DNA from: Thermoproteota archaeon
GTDB lineage: Archaea > Korarchaeota > Korarchaeia > B14-G2
Direction of reading: 5' to 3'
Assembly: GCA_003661385.1 (NCBI GenBank)
Contig: QMWA01000117.1
Coordinates: forward strand, 1 to 5,719
DNA length: 5,719 nucleotides
Shown: piece by piece, positions 1-5,705 of the stretch
How positions within the stretch are numbered: position 1 is the first letter of the stretch
Layout of the letters: each line of letters starts with the position of its first letter
Notes under the pieces: generated by a model
Told to the model about the DNA's origin: nothing
Database searches by the model: none
The model's input: only the letters and a program-made list of their open reading frames with translations
Translations under genes and position numbers: made by a program

Positions 1-1559
1 GCCTTTAATATTTCCCCATGCATCCAAGCCCTCACATGCCCTCCTACTCTAGCTGGTATATCACGTCTATAGTGCACTCCAAGGCTTCCCTTCCTCTTGA
101 GAGCTGACAGGGCAATAGCCTCCAGCGTCAAGAGCATGCTCCACAGCCTCATCCCATGCGGATCACCTTCAGCGCTGAAGCTAAGCCACATCTCCCTAGC
201 CTCTCTAGCGAAGCTGACAGCCTCCCTAAGCCTCTCCTCGTCTCTGATAACCCCCACAAGCCTCCAGGCAGCTGACCTGGCTTCAGCCTCAGCCTGCTTA
301 AGGTCTACCTTACACCGCGGCAGCTCGCCAGCTTTGGGGAGGTCGGCTTTCCTCTCAGATGCAGCGTGCTCTGCTGCAGCTCTCCCAGCTCTGAAGCCGA
401 ACACAGCTGCCTCAGCTAAGGCGTTCCCTGGAAGCCTATTAGCGCCATGAATACCTCCAGCAACCTCCCCTGCAGCATACAGCCCATCCAGCTGAGTTTC
501 ACCCCACTCACTGACCTCCAGGCCACCGCAGAAGAAGTGAGCTGCTGGAGAGACCACTATAGGCTCTCTTCTCAAGTCCACACCATGCCTCATGAACAAC
601 CTAAGAAGCCTGAGGTACCTGCTCTTCAAGATGTCCTCAGGGATCCCAGAGAAGTCCATCAGAACACCGCCATCTACCCCTCTGCCCTCCTCAGCCTCCT
701 GGTATATTGCCCTGGACATGATGTCTCTGTCCTCAACCTCTCTGCTAGAGTACTTGAGCATGAACCTCTCTCCAAGCTTGTTGAGCAGAGAGGCTCCATC
801 ATACAGCGGCGAGGCCAGTATCAGTATCCCTGGAACCGGCTTAACTGTTATCAGAGGATAGAACTGCACGAACTCCATGTCGATCAGCTTAGTTCCAGCG
901 TCCAGTGCTAGCGCATACCCCTCTCCACACGCATCTGGGGTAGCATCGCTCCTAGCATATACTCTTGCTCCACCCCCAGCTGCTAAGACCACGCTTCCAG
1001 CAGAGACTTTGAGGAGCTTCCCTCCCCTGATGTCGTAGGCCAAGCACCCCACAATCCTGTCTCCATCAACCAGCAGCTTGAGGACTGGAGTGTAGCCAGC
1101 TAGCTTAGCCCCCAGCGCAGCAGCTGCCCTAGCGAGGCTTCTAGAGAGCTCAGCTCCAGGGGGATGCCCCTTAACGCAGCATATCCTATGCCTTGAGTGG
1201 CCTGGCGACAAGTCCAGCAGAAGCCTTCCTCCCCTCCTCTTGAACCTGACTCCAAGCTCAGCTAGCTTCCTAACAGCATCAGGAGCCTCCTCAGTGAGGG
1301 CTTCTGCAAGCTCTCTTATGCAAGCTCCTCTCCCAGCCCTCAGGGTATCCCTAAGGTGCAGACTAGGGCTGTCATCACTGCCTAAGGCAGCCGCAATCCT
1401 CCCCTCAGACTTAAAGGTCGCCCCGCTATGCCCAGGAGACCCTCTGCTGAGCACCAGAACGCTGGCGCCAGCTCTCCTAGCTGCTATGGCAGCACAGAGC
1501 CCAGCTGCCCCTCCTCCAACGATGACCACATCAGCTTCCAACTTGCCTCTCAACAACAT
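1..1559 (-). CDS. FAD-dependent oxidoreductase, fumarate reductase/succinate dehydrogenase/L-aspartate oxidase flavoprotein family (3' end outside window)
   Basis: The reading frame is open for 519 codons and leaves the window at base 1 without a stop. It starts with the dinucleotide-binding motif VVIVGGGAAG (residues 11-20). Next comes GATFKSEGRIAAALG (46-60), where alanine 47 replaces the histidine that covalently holds FAD in FrdA/SdhA, so FAD is probably non-covalent as in NadB. GHSRHRI (120-126) is NadB-like. The FAD-domain signature AGEVAGGIHGANRLPGNALAE (363-383) is intact. By comparison with remembered FrdA/NadB sequences, the catalytic arginine (R278 in EDRDIMSRA), H341 in AAHFFCGG and R375 in HGANR are kept. 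The usual HPT substrate motif reads YPL (234-236) and the usual RGEG reads LYDG. The C-terminal GVHYRRDIP (494-502) also fits the family. The enzyme is probably cytoplasmic, but its substrate cannot be named: the altered pocket argues against ordinary fumarate, succinate or aspartate. The start is ATG at 1559, overlapping the upstream gene by 29 bases; TTG at 1556 or 1553 is also possible. Confidence 0.9.
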   Translation of the reverse strand, partial: MLLRGKLEADVVIVGGGAAGLCAAIAARRAGASVLVLSRGSPGHSGATFKSEGRIAAALGSDDSPSLHLRDTLRAGRGACIRELAEALTEEAPDAVRKLAELGVRFKRRGGRLLLDLSPGHSRHRICCVKGHPPGAELSRSLARAAAALGAKLAGYTPVLKLLVDGDRIVGCLAYDIRGGKLLKVSAGSVVLAAGGGARVYARSDATPDACGEGYALALDAGTKLIDMEFVQFYPLITVKPVPGILILASPLYDGASLLNKLGERFMLKYSSREVEDRDIMSRAIYQEAEEGRGVDGGVLMDFSGIPEDILKSRYLRLLRLFMRHGVDLRREPIVVSPAAHFFCGGLEVSEWGETQLDGLYAAGEVAGGIHGANRLPGNALAEAAVFGFRAGRAAAEHAASERKADLPKAGELPRCKVDLKQAEAEARSAAWRLVGVIRDEERLREAVSFAREAREMWLSFSAEGDPHGMRLWSMLLTLEAIALSALKRKGSLGVHYRRDIPARVGGHVRAWMHGEILK

Positions 1560-2502
1560 CCCTCCTGCTCCTCTCAATCAGCATAGCTGCCAGATCTCTC
1601 AGCGCAAAAGCGTCTACACCAGCCATGTAAACTGGTATATCAACTAGCTGAGCGCCATAAAACCTGACGTACAGGCTTCCATCAAACCTGACTACAGAAG
1701 CCCTCCTACACTTCTTCCACAACCCCCTGAACCTGCTCCTCCCAACCTTGACAGTAAACCCCTGCTCAGTCAGCAGTATAGAGGGATGTTGGAGGAGAAG
1801 GTAGGAGGCTGCTCCGATCAAGCTGGACGAGAGCGCTACAGCTGGGAGGATCCATGCTCCACCTGGAGCTCCAAGTAGTGATGCAGCTATGATCACGGCT
1901 GAGCCCATGAGGAAGGCTGAGATCAGCGAGTTCACTACTAAAGCCGGCACATAAACCCTGCTATAGGCCCTTCCCAGCTCTGCCTCAACCCTCCTACCTG
2001 CTCTCTTGAAGACTCTCTTGAGCTTAAGGCTCTTCAGCAGCCTAGCTGCAAGAAACCCTCTGCTGGCATAAGCCTTCCTCCTACTGCAGTCTACAAGTAT
2101 GATGCCCATAGCCCTCTCCTCCAGCCTTCTAACAGCGTCAGCAAGCTCCCCACTAGCCTCCCTGACGACCAGGATGAGCCAGCTCATATGAGCTCCAGAG
2201 CTGGATGAATGCAGCTTAGCTGCATCAACGATCTTCATAGCCTCTCTCTCACCGAGCTCCTCTGAAGCTGAGATGTAGCAGTGAACTCTGTAGTCTGGGA
2301 CCATCAGGGCTAAAAGCCTAGATAGCAGGAAGCCAACTGGCCTAGTGCCACCTGACAGAAACGAGTAGAACTCCACCCCAAAGGCCTTAAGGCCTCTGAT
2401 GGCCTCCCTGAAGTCAGCTACCTCAACACCCCCACCAACCATCAGCTCCCTCTCAAGGCTTCGAGCAACATCCTCGACATTAAATTGGCAGGAGCGGCCC
2501 AC
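1531..2502 (-). CDS. Unknown membrane protein: soluble N-terminal domain, two membrane helices, C-terminal YcxB/PH-like domain
   Basis: This 323-residue protein is not one I recognise by name. Residues 1-165 are soluble and look alpha/beta, with strands such as SWLILVV (107-113) and AMGIILVDC (131-139) separated by a charged helix. A basic stretch (158-171) leads into two hydrophobic helices, about 184-210 and 214-237, joined by a short Gly/Pro turn, so both ends should face the same side, probably the cytoplasm. The tail (240-312) runs through several short strands (SILLTEQGFTVKV, ASVVRFDGSLYVRFYG, LVDIPVYM) and ends in a helix (DAFALRDLAAMLIERS). That order, just after two helices, resembles YcxB-like or bacterial PH domains; this is inferred from pattern only. 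The GTG start is supported by GGAGGAG four bases upstream. The gene overlaps the arrestin-like gene by 23 bases and the flavoprotein gene by 29, so it is translated within an operon. No catalytic motif was recognised. Confidence 0.85.
   Translation of the reverse strand: MGRSCQFNVEDVARSLERELMVGGGVEVADFREAIRGLKAFGVEFYSFLSGGTRPVGFLLSRLLALMVPDYRVHCYISASEELGEREAMKIVDAAKLHSSSSGAHMSWLILVVREASGELADAVRRLEERAMGIILVDCSRRKAYASRGFLAARLLKSLKLKRVFKRAGRRVEAELGRAYSRVYVPALVVNSLISAFLMGSAVIIAASLLGAPGGAWILPAVALSSSLIGAASYLLLQHPSILLTEQGFTVKVGRSRFRGLWKKCRRASVVRFDGSLYVRFYGAQLVDIPVYMAGVDAFALRDLAAMLIERSRRDVVERQVGS
1560..1565 (-). promoter_or_regulatory. Ribosome binding site of the flavoprotein gene
   Basis: GGAGGG on the minus strand directly abuts the ATG at 1559, which is too close for normal initiation. 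The codons after the ATG are TTG (1556) and TTG (1553), lying four and seven bases from GGAGG counted the same way after its last five-base match. The site therefore hints that a TTG may be the true start; it would shorten the protein by only one or two residues. Confidence 0.55.
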
Positions 2503-3271
2503 GCTTCTCCTCCTCTACCCTCTCAGCAAGCCTGGGCTCAGCTGGCTTCAGCACAATCTCCCTTTCAAGGGCTTCCTCAAGGCTCTCAACCCTCACCTTA
2601 GCATCCACTCCAAGCTCCACTCCACCATAGCTCGAGTAGAACGTGTAGGGGTAGAAGAAGTAGACATCCTCAACTTTAGTTGGGTCGCTTTCGAGCTTCA
2701 CCTCAACTTCACCAGCGCCCATCCCTGCGCCTAGGACACGCCCCTCACATAGAGGGTACTCAACTGAGTACTCTCTTCCATCAATCTTAAGCCACTCCCT
2801 TACAACCACTCCAGCCATGTAGTCTTCAGCACTCCCCTTAAGCGGAAACCTACCTCTTATGACCTCTCCAGCCTGGTAGGTCAGCTTCTCAAGCTCAAGC
2901 TCCCCTGAGGGAGGAAGCCTACTCTCGCTGTCAGATGGGAGAACCTTCAGCCTAAGCTCCCTTCTAGGCCATAGGATACGCCCACCCAGCCTGGGGGTAC
3001 CGAATACAAGAGACCACCTCACCTTTATGCTCCTACAGCTCAAGGTAGGTGGCAAAGTCTCTGGGTACTTTATCTCAAAGCTCCCTTCACCTAGCGTGAA
3101 CTCCCTCCTATATGACAGCACTATACTCCAGCTATACTTGCCTACCTCTCTGGCAGGGAGGTCTGATGCAGCCAGCACAACGAGAACCGCTGTAACTCTG
3201 CCTGAGGACTCTCCTCTTATAGGCTCACCAGCCTTCAAGACGCTTTTCTCAACCAGAACTTGTAAGACCAA
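2480..3271 (-). CDS. Two-domain arrestin-like (Spo0M-like) beta-sandwich protein
   Basis: The protein has 263 residues, no signal peptide and no membrane helix, and is mostly alternating hydrophobic/polar strands. It appears to be built from two similar halves: each opens with a strand followed by AGExIRG, at residues 14-20 (KAGEPIRGE) and 134-140 (QAGEVIRGR). In the first half the strand FEIKYPETLPPTLSCRS (65-81) followed by IKVRWSLVFG (82-91) matches the pattern of arrestin and Spo0M proteins, in which a (F/Y)xIPxxLPPS-type segment precedes a (V/I)xYxL strand. The second half ends near residue 230 and is followed by a charged, helical or disordered tail (231-263). Proteins with this fold are usually adaptors or regulators, not enzymes; a partner here is unknown. 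The start is TTG at 3271, the only usable start after the in-frame TAG at 3299-3301; only a weak G-rich stretch (GTGGGG) precedes it. It lies 38 bases after the preceding gene and overlaps the next by 23. The fold assignment rests on reading by eye. Confidence 0.8.
   Translation of the reverse strand: MVLQVLVEKSVLKAGEPIRGESSGRVTAVLVVLAASDLPAREVGKYSWSIVLSYRREFTLGEGSFEIKYPETLPPTLSCRSIKVRWSLVFGTPRLGGRILWPRRELRLKVLPSDSESRLPPSGELELEKLTYQAGEVIRGRFPLKGSAEDYMAGVVVREWLKIDGREYSVEYPLCEGRVLGAGMGAGEVEVKLESDPTKVEDVYFFYPYTFYSSYGGVELGVDAKVRVESLEEALEREIVLKPAEPRLAERVEEEKRGPLLPI
2507..2513 (-). promoter_or_regulatory. Ribosome binding site of the 323-residue protein gene
   Basis: GGAGGAG on the minus strand lies four bases before the GTG at 2502 and inside the coding sequence of the arrestin-like gene. 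It supports GTG as the real start and independent initiation within the overlapping operon. Confidence 0.75.
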
Positions 3272-3309: not shown

Positions 3310-3939
3310 TTACTCTAGCTCAACTACATAGTGGTCTCTAAGCCATCCTGGCTTCTTGAGAACCCTTATCCCCCTGTAGTCTGTGTTAAAGAGGTTAAGC
3401 CTAGCCTTCTTCCTGCTCACGGCCCCCTGTCTCACAAGCTCTCTGACAAGCTCCATCAGATCCTGAGCTATGCTCCTGAGGACCCTGCTCTTGGCTTCAG
3501 CCCTCCCCCTCCTAGCCTCATAGAAGTCTAGGACCTTGTTCAGGCTATACCACCTTGAGACAGCTGAGAAGTAGAAGAGGCCTATAGCAGAGTAGAGGAT
3601 CAGCCTAGCAGCCCAGCTTCCACTCAAGGTGTTCAGGAAGAGAGCTGCTATGAAGAACAGGAGCGTAATCCTCAGGAGAAACCTAGATACCAGGAAGACC
3701 TGGGACCAAAGCTTGGCAGAAGGGTCCTTAGCTGGGAGGTTGACCATGTAGTCTACAGCAGAGAACAGGGCCTTCCTCTTCTTCCTGTCGACAGCCTTCT
3801 TCACGTGCTCCTCTATCTTCTCAAACCTAGACTTAAAGACCCTAGGATCCACGTTACGCCCAACCCTATACCCGTCTATGGCTTCTACGACGAAGAGTAT
3901 GTCGTCAACCGCCTTCCTAAGCTTCTTGCTGCTGCTCAA
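3310..3939 (-). CDS. Small two-helix membrane protein of unknown function
   Basis: I do not recognise this 209-residue protein. Residues 1-75 are rich in Lys, Arg, Glu and Asp and probably helical. Two hydrophobic helices follow, about 82-104 and 108-128, with a tight SGSWA turn, so both ends should face the same side; the many positive charges flanking the helices suggest the cytoplasm. Residues 130-175 form a long charged helix with coiled-coil character (EARRGRAEAKSRVLRS, AQDLMELVRELVRQG). The end (180-209) is short strands, LNLFNTDYRGIRVLKKPG and HYVVELE. The start is TTG at 3939, preceded five bases upstream by AGGTG, part of the archaeal SD consensus; no ATG occurs in frame before residue 65. 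The frame has been open since the permease stop, but the eleven codons between hold no ATG, GTG or TTG. The same strand and short gaps place it in the same cluster as the permease and the arrestin-like gene. Confidence 0.8.
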   Translation of the reverse strand: MSSSKKLRKAVDDILFVVEAIDGYRVGRNVDPRVFKSRFEKIEEHVKKAVDRKKRKALFSAVDYMVNLPAKDPSAKLWSQVFLVSRFLLRITLLFFIAALFLNTLSGSWAARLILYSAIGLFYFSAVSRWYSLNKVLDFYEARRGRAEAKSRVLRSIAQDLMELVRELVRQGAVSRKKARLNLFNTDYRGIRVLKKPGWLRDHYVVELE

Positions 3940-3972: not shown

Positions 3973-5694
3973 TTAGGCTGGAGGTATCTCGGTGTATATT
4001 GTCTTTACATCGACTCCCTTCTTCGTGTTGTATATCAGGAACGCTGAGAATATGAATGCTCCAAGACCCATCCAGAAGGCCTGGTGCAGCGGTATCCCGA
4101 GCCTGAACTCTCCGAAGTAGTAGAATATCTCGTGTGTAGCGATGTAGAAGAAGAAGAAGTTCACCGCGAACCCGTAGGCTCCCAGTATCGTGAGGAGCGG
4201 TATACCAGCTATCTCCCAGCGTAGCGGAGCTTTCTCGTAGAGATCTCTCCTCAGGTATGGTAGGACAGCTGCAGCTAGGCATGCCAGCATGACAGCGAAC
4301 TGGTACAGGTTGGTTGTGTCAGCTGCTGCAGCCCAGTCTCCTCCTGCAGTCAAAGCCACGCCGAAGATGCCTCCTATCATTGTGAGGAGTATAGCCCAGT
4401 GTGGGCTGTGGAACTTGTCGTTCACAGCAGCGAAGGTCTCTGGGAAGAACCTGTCGAAAGCCCAGGCGAATACCATCCTGCTAGCTACAACGAAGAACGC
4501 TGGGATGTCCTTCAGCAGCACAATGCCTACTAGAGTGCCATTGAGCACCTGTAGCCAAGCCAATCCAGGTGGAACTAGCGGTATGGTGAATGACGTCACT
4601 ACTCTAGGTGGCAGCAGCCAGTCAGGTGGCACCCCTAGCAGGCTAGCTACCCCATCAGCTCCAAGCTTCTCCATCAGGTAGTTGTAGAGTGCCGTATAGT
4701 ATACTCTGCTCGTTGGTATGCCATGCTGGCTCAAGTATGTCATTGCACCAGGTACCTGGGCGAGGATGCTCTCTGGCACGACGTAAACACCGTAGACCAG
4801 GAGTGGCAGAGCTATGTAGTAGAGCATTATGATTATCGTCCCGAGGATCTGGGCTACAACCAGAGACTTAGCTGGGGTCTTCAGCTCACCTCCAACGAAG
4901 ACAGCTGACACTATGCCTATGTAGGCCCAGATTGCTCCTATGCTGGCTTTCATCGTGTCTCCCCAGCTGTGAGGCTTCACCGGGAGGTCCTTGTCCTTCA
5001 TGCCAAGCTCAAATGCCTTGTTAACTATCTTCTCGTATGCTCCAGACCCGTATATCGTGTTCCACCCCTTAACAGCACCCATCTGAGCTGTTCCCCATGC
5101 CCCAAGGATCAGGAGGTTGCTCAAGCACCCTATTATCGCTACTATACCGAGGATGTTGATTATCCAACCATAGATCCTCATGCCTAGCAGAGCTATCGCA
5201 CCGAAGACTATGACGAATATCATCCCGAGAACCCAGTGGCCTTGAGTTGTGGACATCCACTTAGCTGCGTTCAGGAGCCCCTGGCTCCTCGTGGCTATCC
5301 CAGCTGCCGTCGCAGCTCCGACGAAGAAGTCTATCGAGTACCATGCTATGATACCGTAGCTCAAGACCTCAGTGAACCAGAAGCCCCATGAAGCCAGGAA
5401 GCCTAGAGTTGGGCTTAAGCCTCTGGTGATGAATATGTAGTCTCCTCCAGTCCTAGGCATCATTGCACCGAGCATGGTGTACACTACTGCAGTGGGTATC
5501 ATAGCTAAGATCCCTGTGATGAGGAATGAATACGGGACGAAGGCTCCAGGATGCGTGTAGGCTGCTATAATAGCGAGCCTGTGGATGCCACCGCCAACGG
5601 TGTGTGTGAAGCATATCATGAAGGCTGTGAATGGCCCTACCGTCCTGACTAGTCCTGATGCCCTCCTAACGAATAGCGTAGGCATCTCCGCCAT
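3973..5694 (-). CDS. APC-superfamily amino acid/polyamine permease
   Basis: This 573-residue integral membrane protein has about twelve hydrophobic helices and should import an amino acid or polyamine by coupling to an ion gradient; the substrate cannot be told. Several APC landmarks are visible. Helix 1 (18-43) carries the glycine break GGGIHR (34-39), where the substrate carboxylate binds in characterised APC members. MMPRTGGDYIFITRG (78-92) follows helix 2. GGELKTP (268-274) lies after helix 6, matching the usual GExxxP motif. SRMVFAWAFDRFFPETFAAV (405-424) follows helix 8, matching the SRxxxAxxRDGxLPxxF motif. It is longer than a typical 450-500 residue member because of loops at about 199-248 and 303-378. 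I chose ATG at 5694 because GAGGTG lies five bases upstream (5700-5705); the GTG at 5700 overlaps that site and would add two residues. The stop is TAA. The promoter, if adjacent, lies outside the window. Confidence 0.93.
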   Translation of the reverse strand: MAEMPTLFVRRASGLVRTVGPFTAFMICFTHTVGGGIHRLAIIAAYTHPGAFVPYSFLITGILAMIPTAVVYTMLGAMMPRTGGDYIFITRGLSPTLGFLASWGFWFTEVLSYGIIAWYSIDFFVGAATAAGIATRSQGLLNAAKWMSTTQGHWVLGMIFVIVFGAIALLGMRIYGWIINILGIVAIIGCLSNLLILGAWGTAQMGAVKGWNTIYGSGAYEKIVNKAFELGMKDKDLPVKPHSWGDTMKASIGAIWAYIGIVSAVFVGGELKTPAKSLVVAQILGTIIIMLYYIALPLLVYGVYVVPESILAQVPGAMTYLSQHGIPTSRVYYTALYNYLMEKLGADGVASLLGVPPDWLLPPRVVTSFTIPLVPPGLAWLQVLNGTLVGIVLLKDIPAFFVVASRMVFAWAFDRFFPETFAAVNDKFHSPHWAILLTMIGGIFGVALTAGGDWAAAADTTNLYQFAVMLACLAAAVLPYLRRDLYEKAPLRWEIAGIPLLTILGAYGFAVNFFFFYIATHEIFYYFGEFRLGIPLHQAFWMGLGAFIFSAFLIYNTKKGVDVKTIYTEIPPA

Positions 5695-5699
5695 ACACA

Positions 5700-5705
5700 C
5701 ACCTC
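5700..5705 (-). promoter_or_regulatory. Ribosome binding site of the permease gene
   Basis: GAGGTG on the minus strand matches the archaeal SD consensus GGAGGTGAT and lies five bases before the ATG at 5694. It decides between that ATG and the GTG at 5700, which it overlaps. Confidence 0.75.

Follow-up and report, generated by a model that had tools for sequence, protein, structure and literature searches.

A korarchaeal flavoprotein of the fumarate reductase/L-aspartate oxidase type with an altered distal substrate pocket resembling in kind that of urocanate reductase

Introduction

A gene at the end of a korarchaeal contig encodes a flavoprotein that keeps the catalytic residues of fumarate reductase and has its distal substrate pocket replaced, which raises the question of what the enzyme acts on. 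In this superfamily, Thr and the first HPT His serve as substrate ligands (PMC10238741), and Glu378 and Arg381 of Fcc3 constitute a proton-transfer pathway (PMC7921117). In annotation, genes of this kind readily end up labelled as fumarate reductase or aspartate oxidase. An earlier note, made from the letters of the DNA, had proposed a rebuilt pocket, and its claims were followed up by alignment, structure prediction, phylogeny and comparison of gene neighbourhoods.

The contig and its genes

The window, which is the whole stretch of DNA analysed (5,719 bases), represents one entire contig (C117) of a draft genome that is 1.74 Mb in size, 91% complete and split into 206 contigs. The lineage is korarchaeal and forms its own family, in a phylum with 29 genomes. 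Contamination of the bin was considered and rejected; the permease encoded on the contig shares 76-79% identity with the nearest of its orthologues in the same class, and the contig therefore belongs to the korarchaeal lineage. All five plausible genes lie on the minus strand and are listed below in the order of transcription.

3973..5700, minus strand: APC-family amino acid permease (Pfam), first gene of the same-strand run
3310..3939, minus strand: 209-aa gene, without a match in the Pfam search
2480..3271, minus strand: 263-aa gene, without a match in the Pfam search
1531..2502, minus strand: 323-aa protein, function unassigned, overlapping the flavoprotein start by ~29 bases
3..1559, minus strand: FAD_binding_2-superfamily flavoprotein, 519 aa from ATG (open reading frame, Pfam and AlphaFold2 model)

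Short overlaps join the last three genes, and that between the flavoprotein gene and the 323-aa gene, whose product gave no match in the Pfam search, may possibly reflect translational coupling. An alternative flavoprotein start, an upstream TTG at 1577, would yield a product of 525 aa. The flavoprotein frame runs without a stop up to the end of the contig, so the 3' end of the gene is cut and the C-terminus of the product is missing. The earlier note had mentioned neither the strand nor this truncation. No gene for an iron-sulfur subunit was found beside the flavoprotein gene in the window, the downstream side being cut by the contig end.

In other Korarchaeia (L141, L142, L143 and L146) the permease gene adjoins a metallophosphoesterase-like gene and the 209/263 pair, with no flavoprotein; there the pair and the permease gene are divergently oriented, whereas in the window they share one strand. 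Within the phylum the flavoprotein and the 323-aa protein occur here only; the one exception is a weakly matching relative of the latter in G028 (L145:1-651), encoded directly beside a permease homologue. No close orthologue of the flavoprotein was detected in the 29 genomes of the phylum, and a scan of 398 genomes from a second archaeal phylum, run without a positive control, gave none at E 1e-80. As the permease and the 209/263 pair are conserved without the flavoprotein, the gene context gives no substrate. The permease on the same strand hints weakly at amino-acid-derived acids.

Family and predicted fold

The protein matched Pfam FAD_binding_2 (PF00890) with 247 bits against a cut-off of 20.4 (E=5e-73), and the fumarate reductase flavoprotein C-terminal domain was also matched. 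An AlphaFold2 model generated from a 67-sequence alignment had a pLDDT of 92.8 and a pTM of 0.93, and structure comparison of this model gave Z scores of 48.5 with E. coli FrdA, 47.8 with NadB, 46.8 with Sulfolobus NadB, 39 with flavocytochrome c3 and 38.3 with UrdA (over 371 residues). The model thus predicts with high confidence that the product folds as an FrdA/NadB-type flavoprotein.

All the NCBIfam equivalogs shown scored well under their cut-offs: TIGR01812 (282.9 bits, cut-off 567), TIGR01816 (203.5, cut-off 727), TIGR01176 (201.7, cut-off 933), NF004900 (366.5, cut-off 718) and TIGR00551, the NadB model (336, cut-off 452.75), for which some archaeal matches also fall just under. The other family member of the genome (C142, FrdA-type) passes TIGR01812. 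Its gene is preceded by a malic-enzyme-like gene and followed by an iron-sulfur subunit gene, which is the sole dhsB-type subunit above cut-off in the genome.

Active-site residues

The motifs and residues of the flavoprotein that bear on its function are given here with their positions in the window.

1500..1517, minus strand: GGGAAG dinucleotide-binding motif, residues 15-20 (alignment)
1194..1211, minus strand: LSPGHS, residues 117-122; S118 aligns with NadB Glu121
852..860, minus strand: YPL, residues 234-236, replacing HPT; Y234 corresponds to Fcc3 His365
795..818, minus strand: LASPLYDG, residues 248-255, replacing TEAVRGEG
726..728, minus strand: R278, catalytic Arg (Fcc3 R402, FrdA R287, UrdA R411)
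537..539, minus strand: H341, proximal substrate His (Fcc3 H504, UrdA H520)
411..449, minus strand: HGANRLPGNALAE, residues 371-383, with R375 (Fcc3 R544, UrdA R560)
81..89, minus strand: GSL, residues 491-493, which is ESR in relatives (RxESRG motif)

R278, H341 and R375 were invariant in all 67 sequences of the alignment (A1), so the motif match is not due to chance, and 65 of 68 highly conserved columns are kept, these three included. In this respect the earlier note, which had named the three residues, both FAD-binding motifs and the change of HPT to YPL, was borne out, the alignment at HPT being unambiguous. Fcc3 numbering was counted on the alignment for the HPT/TEAVRG stretch and taken from conserved motifs for R402, H504 and R544; in this numbering T377, E378, R381 and G382 are equivalent to L248, A249, L252 and Y253. 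The stretch 244-256 aligns ungapped, anchored on GIL and GA. RGEG falls, as had been proposed, on L252-Y253-D254-G255, with its last Glu conservatively exchanged for Asp, while TE falls on L248-A249 and not on A249-S250, a correction that leaves the conclusion standing. The ten canonical sequences compared all carry Arg at position 252, where the window protein has Leu, and Gly at the position of Y253 (10/10). The alignment revealed no counterpart of HPT or RGEG at any other place in the protein.

Two further points of the earlier note had to be revised. It had regarded the TE..R segment as a source of carboxylate ligands, and Glu378 and Arg381 are instead described as a proton relay (PMC7921117). 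It had also counted the loss of NadB Glu121 as a loss from the pocket; this Glu is indeed absent (Ser118), but the position is Phe in 10/10 Frd/Sdh-type sequences, so its absence counts only against NadB. Like NadB, the window protein has no His at the aligned position for covalent FAD; such attachment increases the flavin potential, and succinate oxidation has been described as depending on it (PMC10238741). Towards the C-terminus, E491G and R493L make the RxESRG motif read RKGSLG, a motif that is near-invariant in relatives, stand-alone NadB included. These two changes, Y253 and the missing His had escaped the earlier note.

The view that these changes denote a changed substrate and not a dead enzyme is well supported by the invariant catalytic trio, by the hydrophobic or aromatic distal residues and by the precedent of UrdA. 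The gene is real, and its product is judged to be a well-folded and probably active enzyme with an altered distal pocket.

Tyr-type relatives and phylogeny

Eighty relatives were retrieved by scanning 84,980 species genomes. Among all sequences aligned, 83, the window protein included, had Tyr (81) or Phe (2) at the first-His position. The scan was biased towards Tyr by its query peptide (DMEFVQFY), which affects the share of Tyr but not the finding that Tyr-type sequences are numerous and diverse. The Tyr-type sequences belong to Bacillota, Thermodesulfobacteriota, Nitrospirota, Chloroflexota and Methanomethylicota, and position 252 is mostly Leu, Phe or Tyr in the Y/F-type set. That the pocket is peculiar to this gene is less well supported: Tyr and loss of TE..R proved to be widespread among relatives, while the triple Y234, A249 and Y253, like any aromatic residue at 253, was confined to the window protein among the 83. 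YPL and LYDG do not mark a conserved subfamily: the window protein is at most 41% identical to any relative and sits by itself on a long branch, and SSPLFGDGA is the reading in the relatives closest to it in motif. Within the phylum, an unbiased search yielded only two sequences of the Tyr/Phe-type sort (G026 and G027; 38-39% identity, QFFPT). No close homologue with demonstrated activity, aspartate oxidase and fumarate reductase included, was found.

Gene neighbourhoods of several Tyr-type relatives were catabolic in character. The flavoproteins of L034, L041, L032 and L035 adjoin class I fumarase alpha/beta subunits and an iron-sulfur subunit, and most also MmgE/PrpD; in L040 there is a TRAP-type transporter, and L037 carries genes that resemble tripartite transporters. 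The first four clusters may possibly serve an uncharacterised carboxylate pathway. HPT-type and Tyr-type flavoproteins occur together in L034:2-7620 and L041:2-7626, the second of which also encodes a cytochrome b561-type protein.

In a smaller tree the window protein stood beside two NadBs (branch value 84). This join was lost once NadB rows were added and is thus probably attributable to long-branch attraction. In the tree with archaeal NadB rows added, a branch (98, starred) splits the HPT enzymes and NadB from the Tyr-type sequences and the window protein. Forcing the window protein into the NadB clade lowered the log-likelihood by 34.9 (AU p 0.067). NadB kinship of the window protein is disfavoured by these comparisons, although the AU test does not reject it significantly. 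An Acidobacterial sequence inside the NadB clade (L047:5977-7596) carries YPT instead of HPT, which shows the His/Tyr exchange to have occurred more than once on the tree. The change of pocket is partly common to a large uncharacterised group, and it resembles that of UrdA in kind.

Proposed function and alternatives

The reading that we tentatively favour, at somewhat less than an even chance, is that of an oxidoreductase with non-covalent FAD acting on an alpha,beta-unsaturated monocarboxylate (or its saturated form in the reverse direction) whose tail is hydrophobic or aromatic, in the manner of UrdA. Within the fumarate reductase superfamily the enzyme would be a soluble C-C oxidoreductase, in which the lone carboxylate would be held beside the flavin by Arg375 and His341, hydride would move between flavin N5 and the substrate beta carbon, and Arg278 would give or take a proton at the alpha carbon. 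A distal site made up of Tyr234, Leu248, Ala249, Leu252 and Tyr253 would accept an uncharged, non-acidic group, and solvent would supply the protons, as has been suggested for UrdA. Since the counterparts of His365 and Thr377 (second carboxylate) and of Glu378 and Arg381 (protons) are replaced, a non-acidic tail and solvent protons are to be expected, and it is from these replacements that we infer both the substrate class and the proton supply. The monocarboxylate reading is weakened by Leu252 at the Arg381 position, where UrdA keeps Arg (Arg390), and Ser250 in place of Asp388, by the gene neighbourhoods of the motif-nearest relatives, by the lone long branch without orthologues, by the E491G and R493L changes, and by the loss of the C-terminus and the downstream gene to the contig end.

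It is conceivable, though rather doubtful, that an archaeal enzyme has independently evolved a UrdA-like pocket and reduces or forms some aryl or alkyl acrylate, for instance as a sink for electrons when amino acids are fermented; it would then belong to a large Tyr-type branch having its own substrates. No papers on acrylate- or cinnamate-type relatives were found in the literature searched.

The main rival is a branched or larger di- or tricarboxylate, such as a substituted fumarate or succinate, whose second carboxylate would be bound by other residues, the Tyr-type group then being dicarboxylate oxidoreductases of side pathways. The fumarase, MmgE/PrpD and TRAP-type genes beside the motif-nearest relatives point to di- or tricarboxylate substrates in some of these relatives at least, and the clusters of L034, L041, L032 and L035 and the transporters of L040 and L037 all speak for it; however, none of those cluster genes is present in the window, the only dhsB-type subunit above cut-off sits with the canonical FrdA, and positions 234 and 248-253 include no basic residue. 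We regard this as unlikely, although it deserves to be taken seriously.

That the protein is a diverged L-aspartate oxidase (NadB), or an amino acid oxidase or dehydrogenase related to it, appears improbable. The best matches in a single-sequence PDB search were NadBs (E about 1e-60), AHFFCGG of the window protein resembles AHYTCGG of bacterial NadB, FAD is non-covalent, L047 in the NadB clade also has YPT, a clade of NadB and the window protein retains an AU p of 0.067, and an amino acid permease is encoded on the same strand. Aspartate oxidase is nevertheless weakened by the missing ligands, by the fuller tree, which places the window protein outside NadB, and by the failure to find nadA. 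No match to nadA was obtained in the source genome (91% complete) by a search that was positive in 12 of 14 controls, and this argues against aspartate oxidase; in a search with positive controls nadA was present in only 4 of the 29 genomes of the phylum (G004, G014, G017 and G023) and was not found in the source genome nor in the other 24.

A decaying or non-catalytic paralogue is similarly improbable, for while a long lone branch, the lack of an orthologue in the phylum and two changes in RxESRG would accord with decay, the frame is open throughout, the fold is predicted with high confidence, and the highly conserved columns are kept almost entirely. Least likely of all is a fumarate reductase tolerating the altered pocket: the catalytic Arg, His and Arg are kept and the replaced His was considered important for binding and not for catalysis in the UrdA study (PMC7921117), but the transition-state-stabilising Thr and the proton relay are lost as well, and a canonical FrdA-type protein, complete with iron-sulfur subunit, is already encoded in the genome.

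The combination of a retained catalytic trio and a replaced distal pocket provides a testable rule for separating one-carboxylate enzymes from fumarate enzymes. If the monocarboxylate reading is correct, an enoate-type reaction would be added to an uncultured archaeal lineage, and a large unstudied bacterial branch would be indicated.

Comparison with known systems

FrdA/SdhA and TfrA (thiol:fumarate reductase) share with the window protein the fold and the catalytic Arg, His and Arg, but the window protein lacks their covalent-FAD His and has YPL for HPT and LASPLYDG for TEAVRGEG. The NadBs (1chu, 2e5v and 5kxj) are alike in overall fold, length, non-covalent FAD and the three catalytic residues; their HPT, TE..R and Glu121 are missing in the window protein, which has YPL, LA..L and Ser118.

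Closer in motif are flavoproteins of the Tyr type, none of them characterised, from Desulfofundulus, Formimonas, Nitrospirota and other bacteria (L034, L041, L032, L035 and L039). Like the window protein they have QFYP, have lost TE..R, keep the catalytic residues invariant and have GA after the altered segment (SSPLFGDGA against ASPLYDGA). They differ in having Phe-Gly where the window protein has Leu-Tyr, and in lying in catabolic clusters (fumarase, MmgE/PrpD, iron-sulfur protein) whose genes are absent from the window.

UrdA of Shewanella oneidensis (PDB 6t85-6t88) is set apart by the exchange of His for Tyr373, of Glu377 for Ala and of a conserved Gly for Phe391; its Arg/His/Arg set holds the urocanate carboxylate, and in place of a proton relay, which it does not have, protons are proposed to come from solvent (PMC7921117). 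It reduces urocanate with undetectable activity on fumarate, which the Y373H variant reduces weakly (PMC7921117). The window protein shares the catalytic Arg and the His and Arg for the carboxylate, and its Y234, A249 and Y253 are counterparts of the three substitutions, equivalences that were drawn via the paper and not from a letter-by-letter alignment. Differences, judged by placement against the conserved motif, are that Arg390 of UrdA is Leu252 and that Ser250 stands for the imidazole ligand Asp388, a position where Asp, Asn or Gln binds the imidazole. Furthermore, UrdA has an FMN domain, which the window protein does not, and is extracytosolic, whereas the window protein shows no sign of export; its sequence similarity to the window protein is weaker than that of NadB (E 3.5e-24 in the PDB search). 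With the substitutions matched and Arg390 and Asp388 not, the likeness to UrdA is one of pocket type and not of substrate. The superfamily itself is known and functionally diverse, with many members whose substrates are unknown (PMC8238504), and the window protein is a new variant of it.
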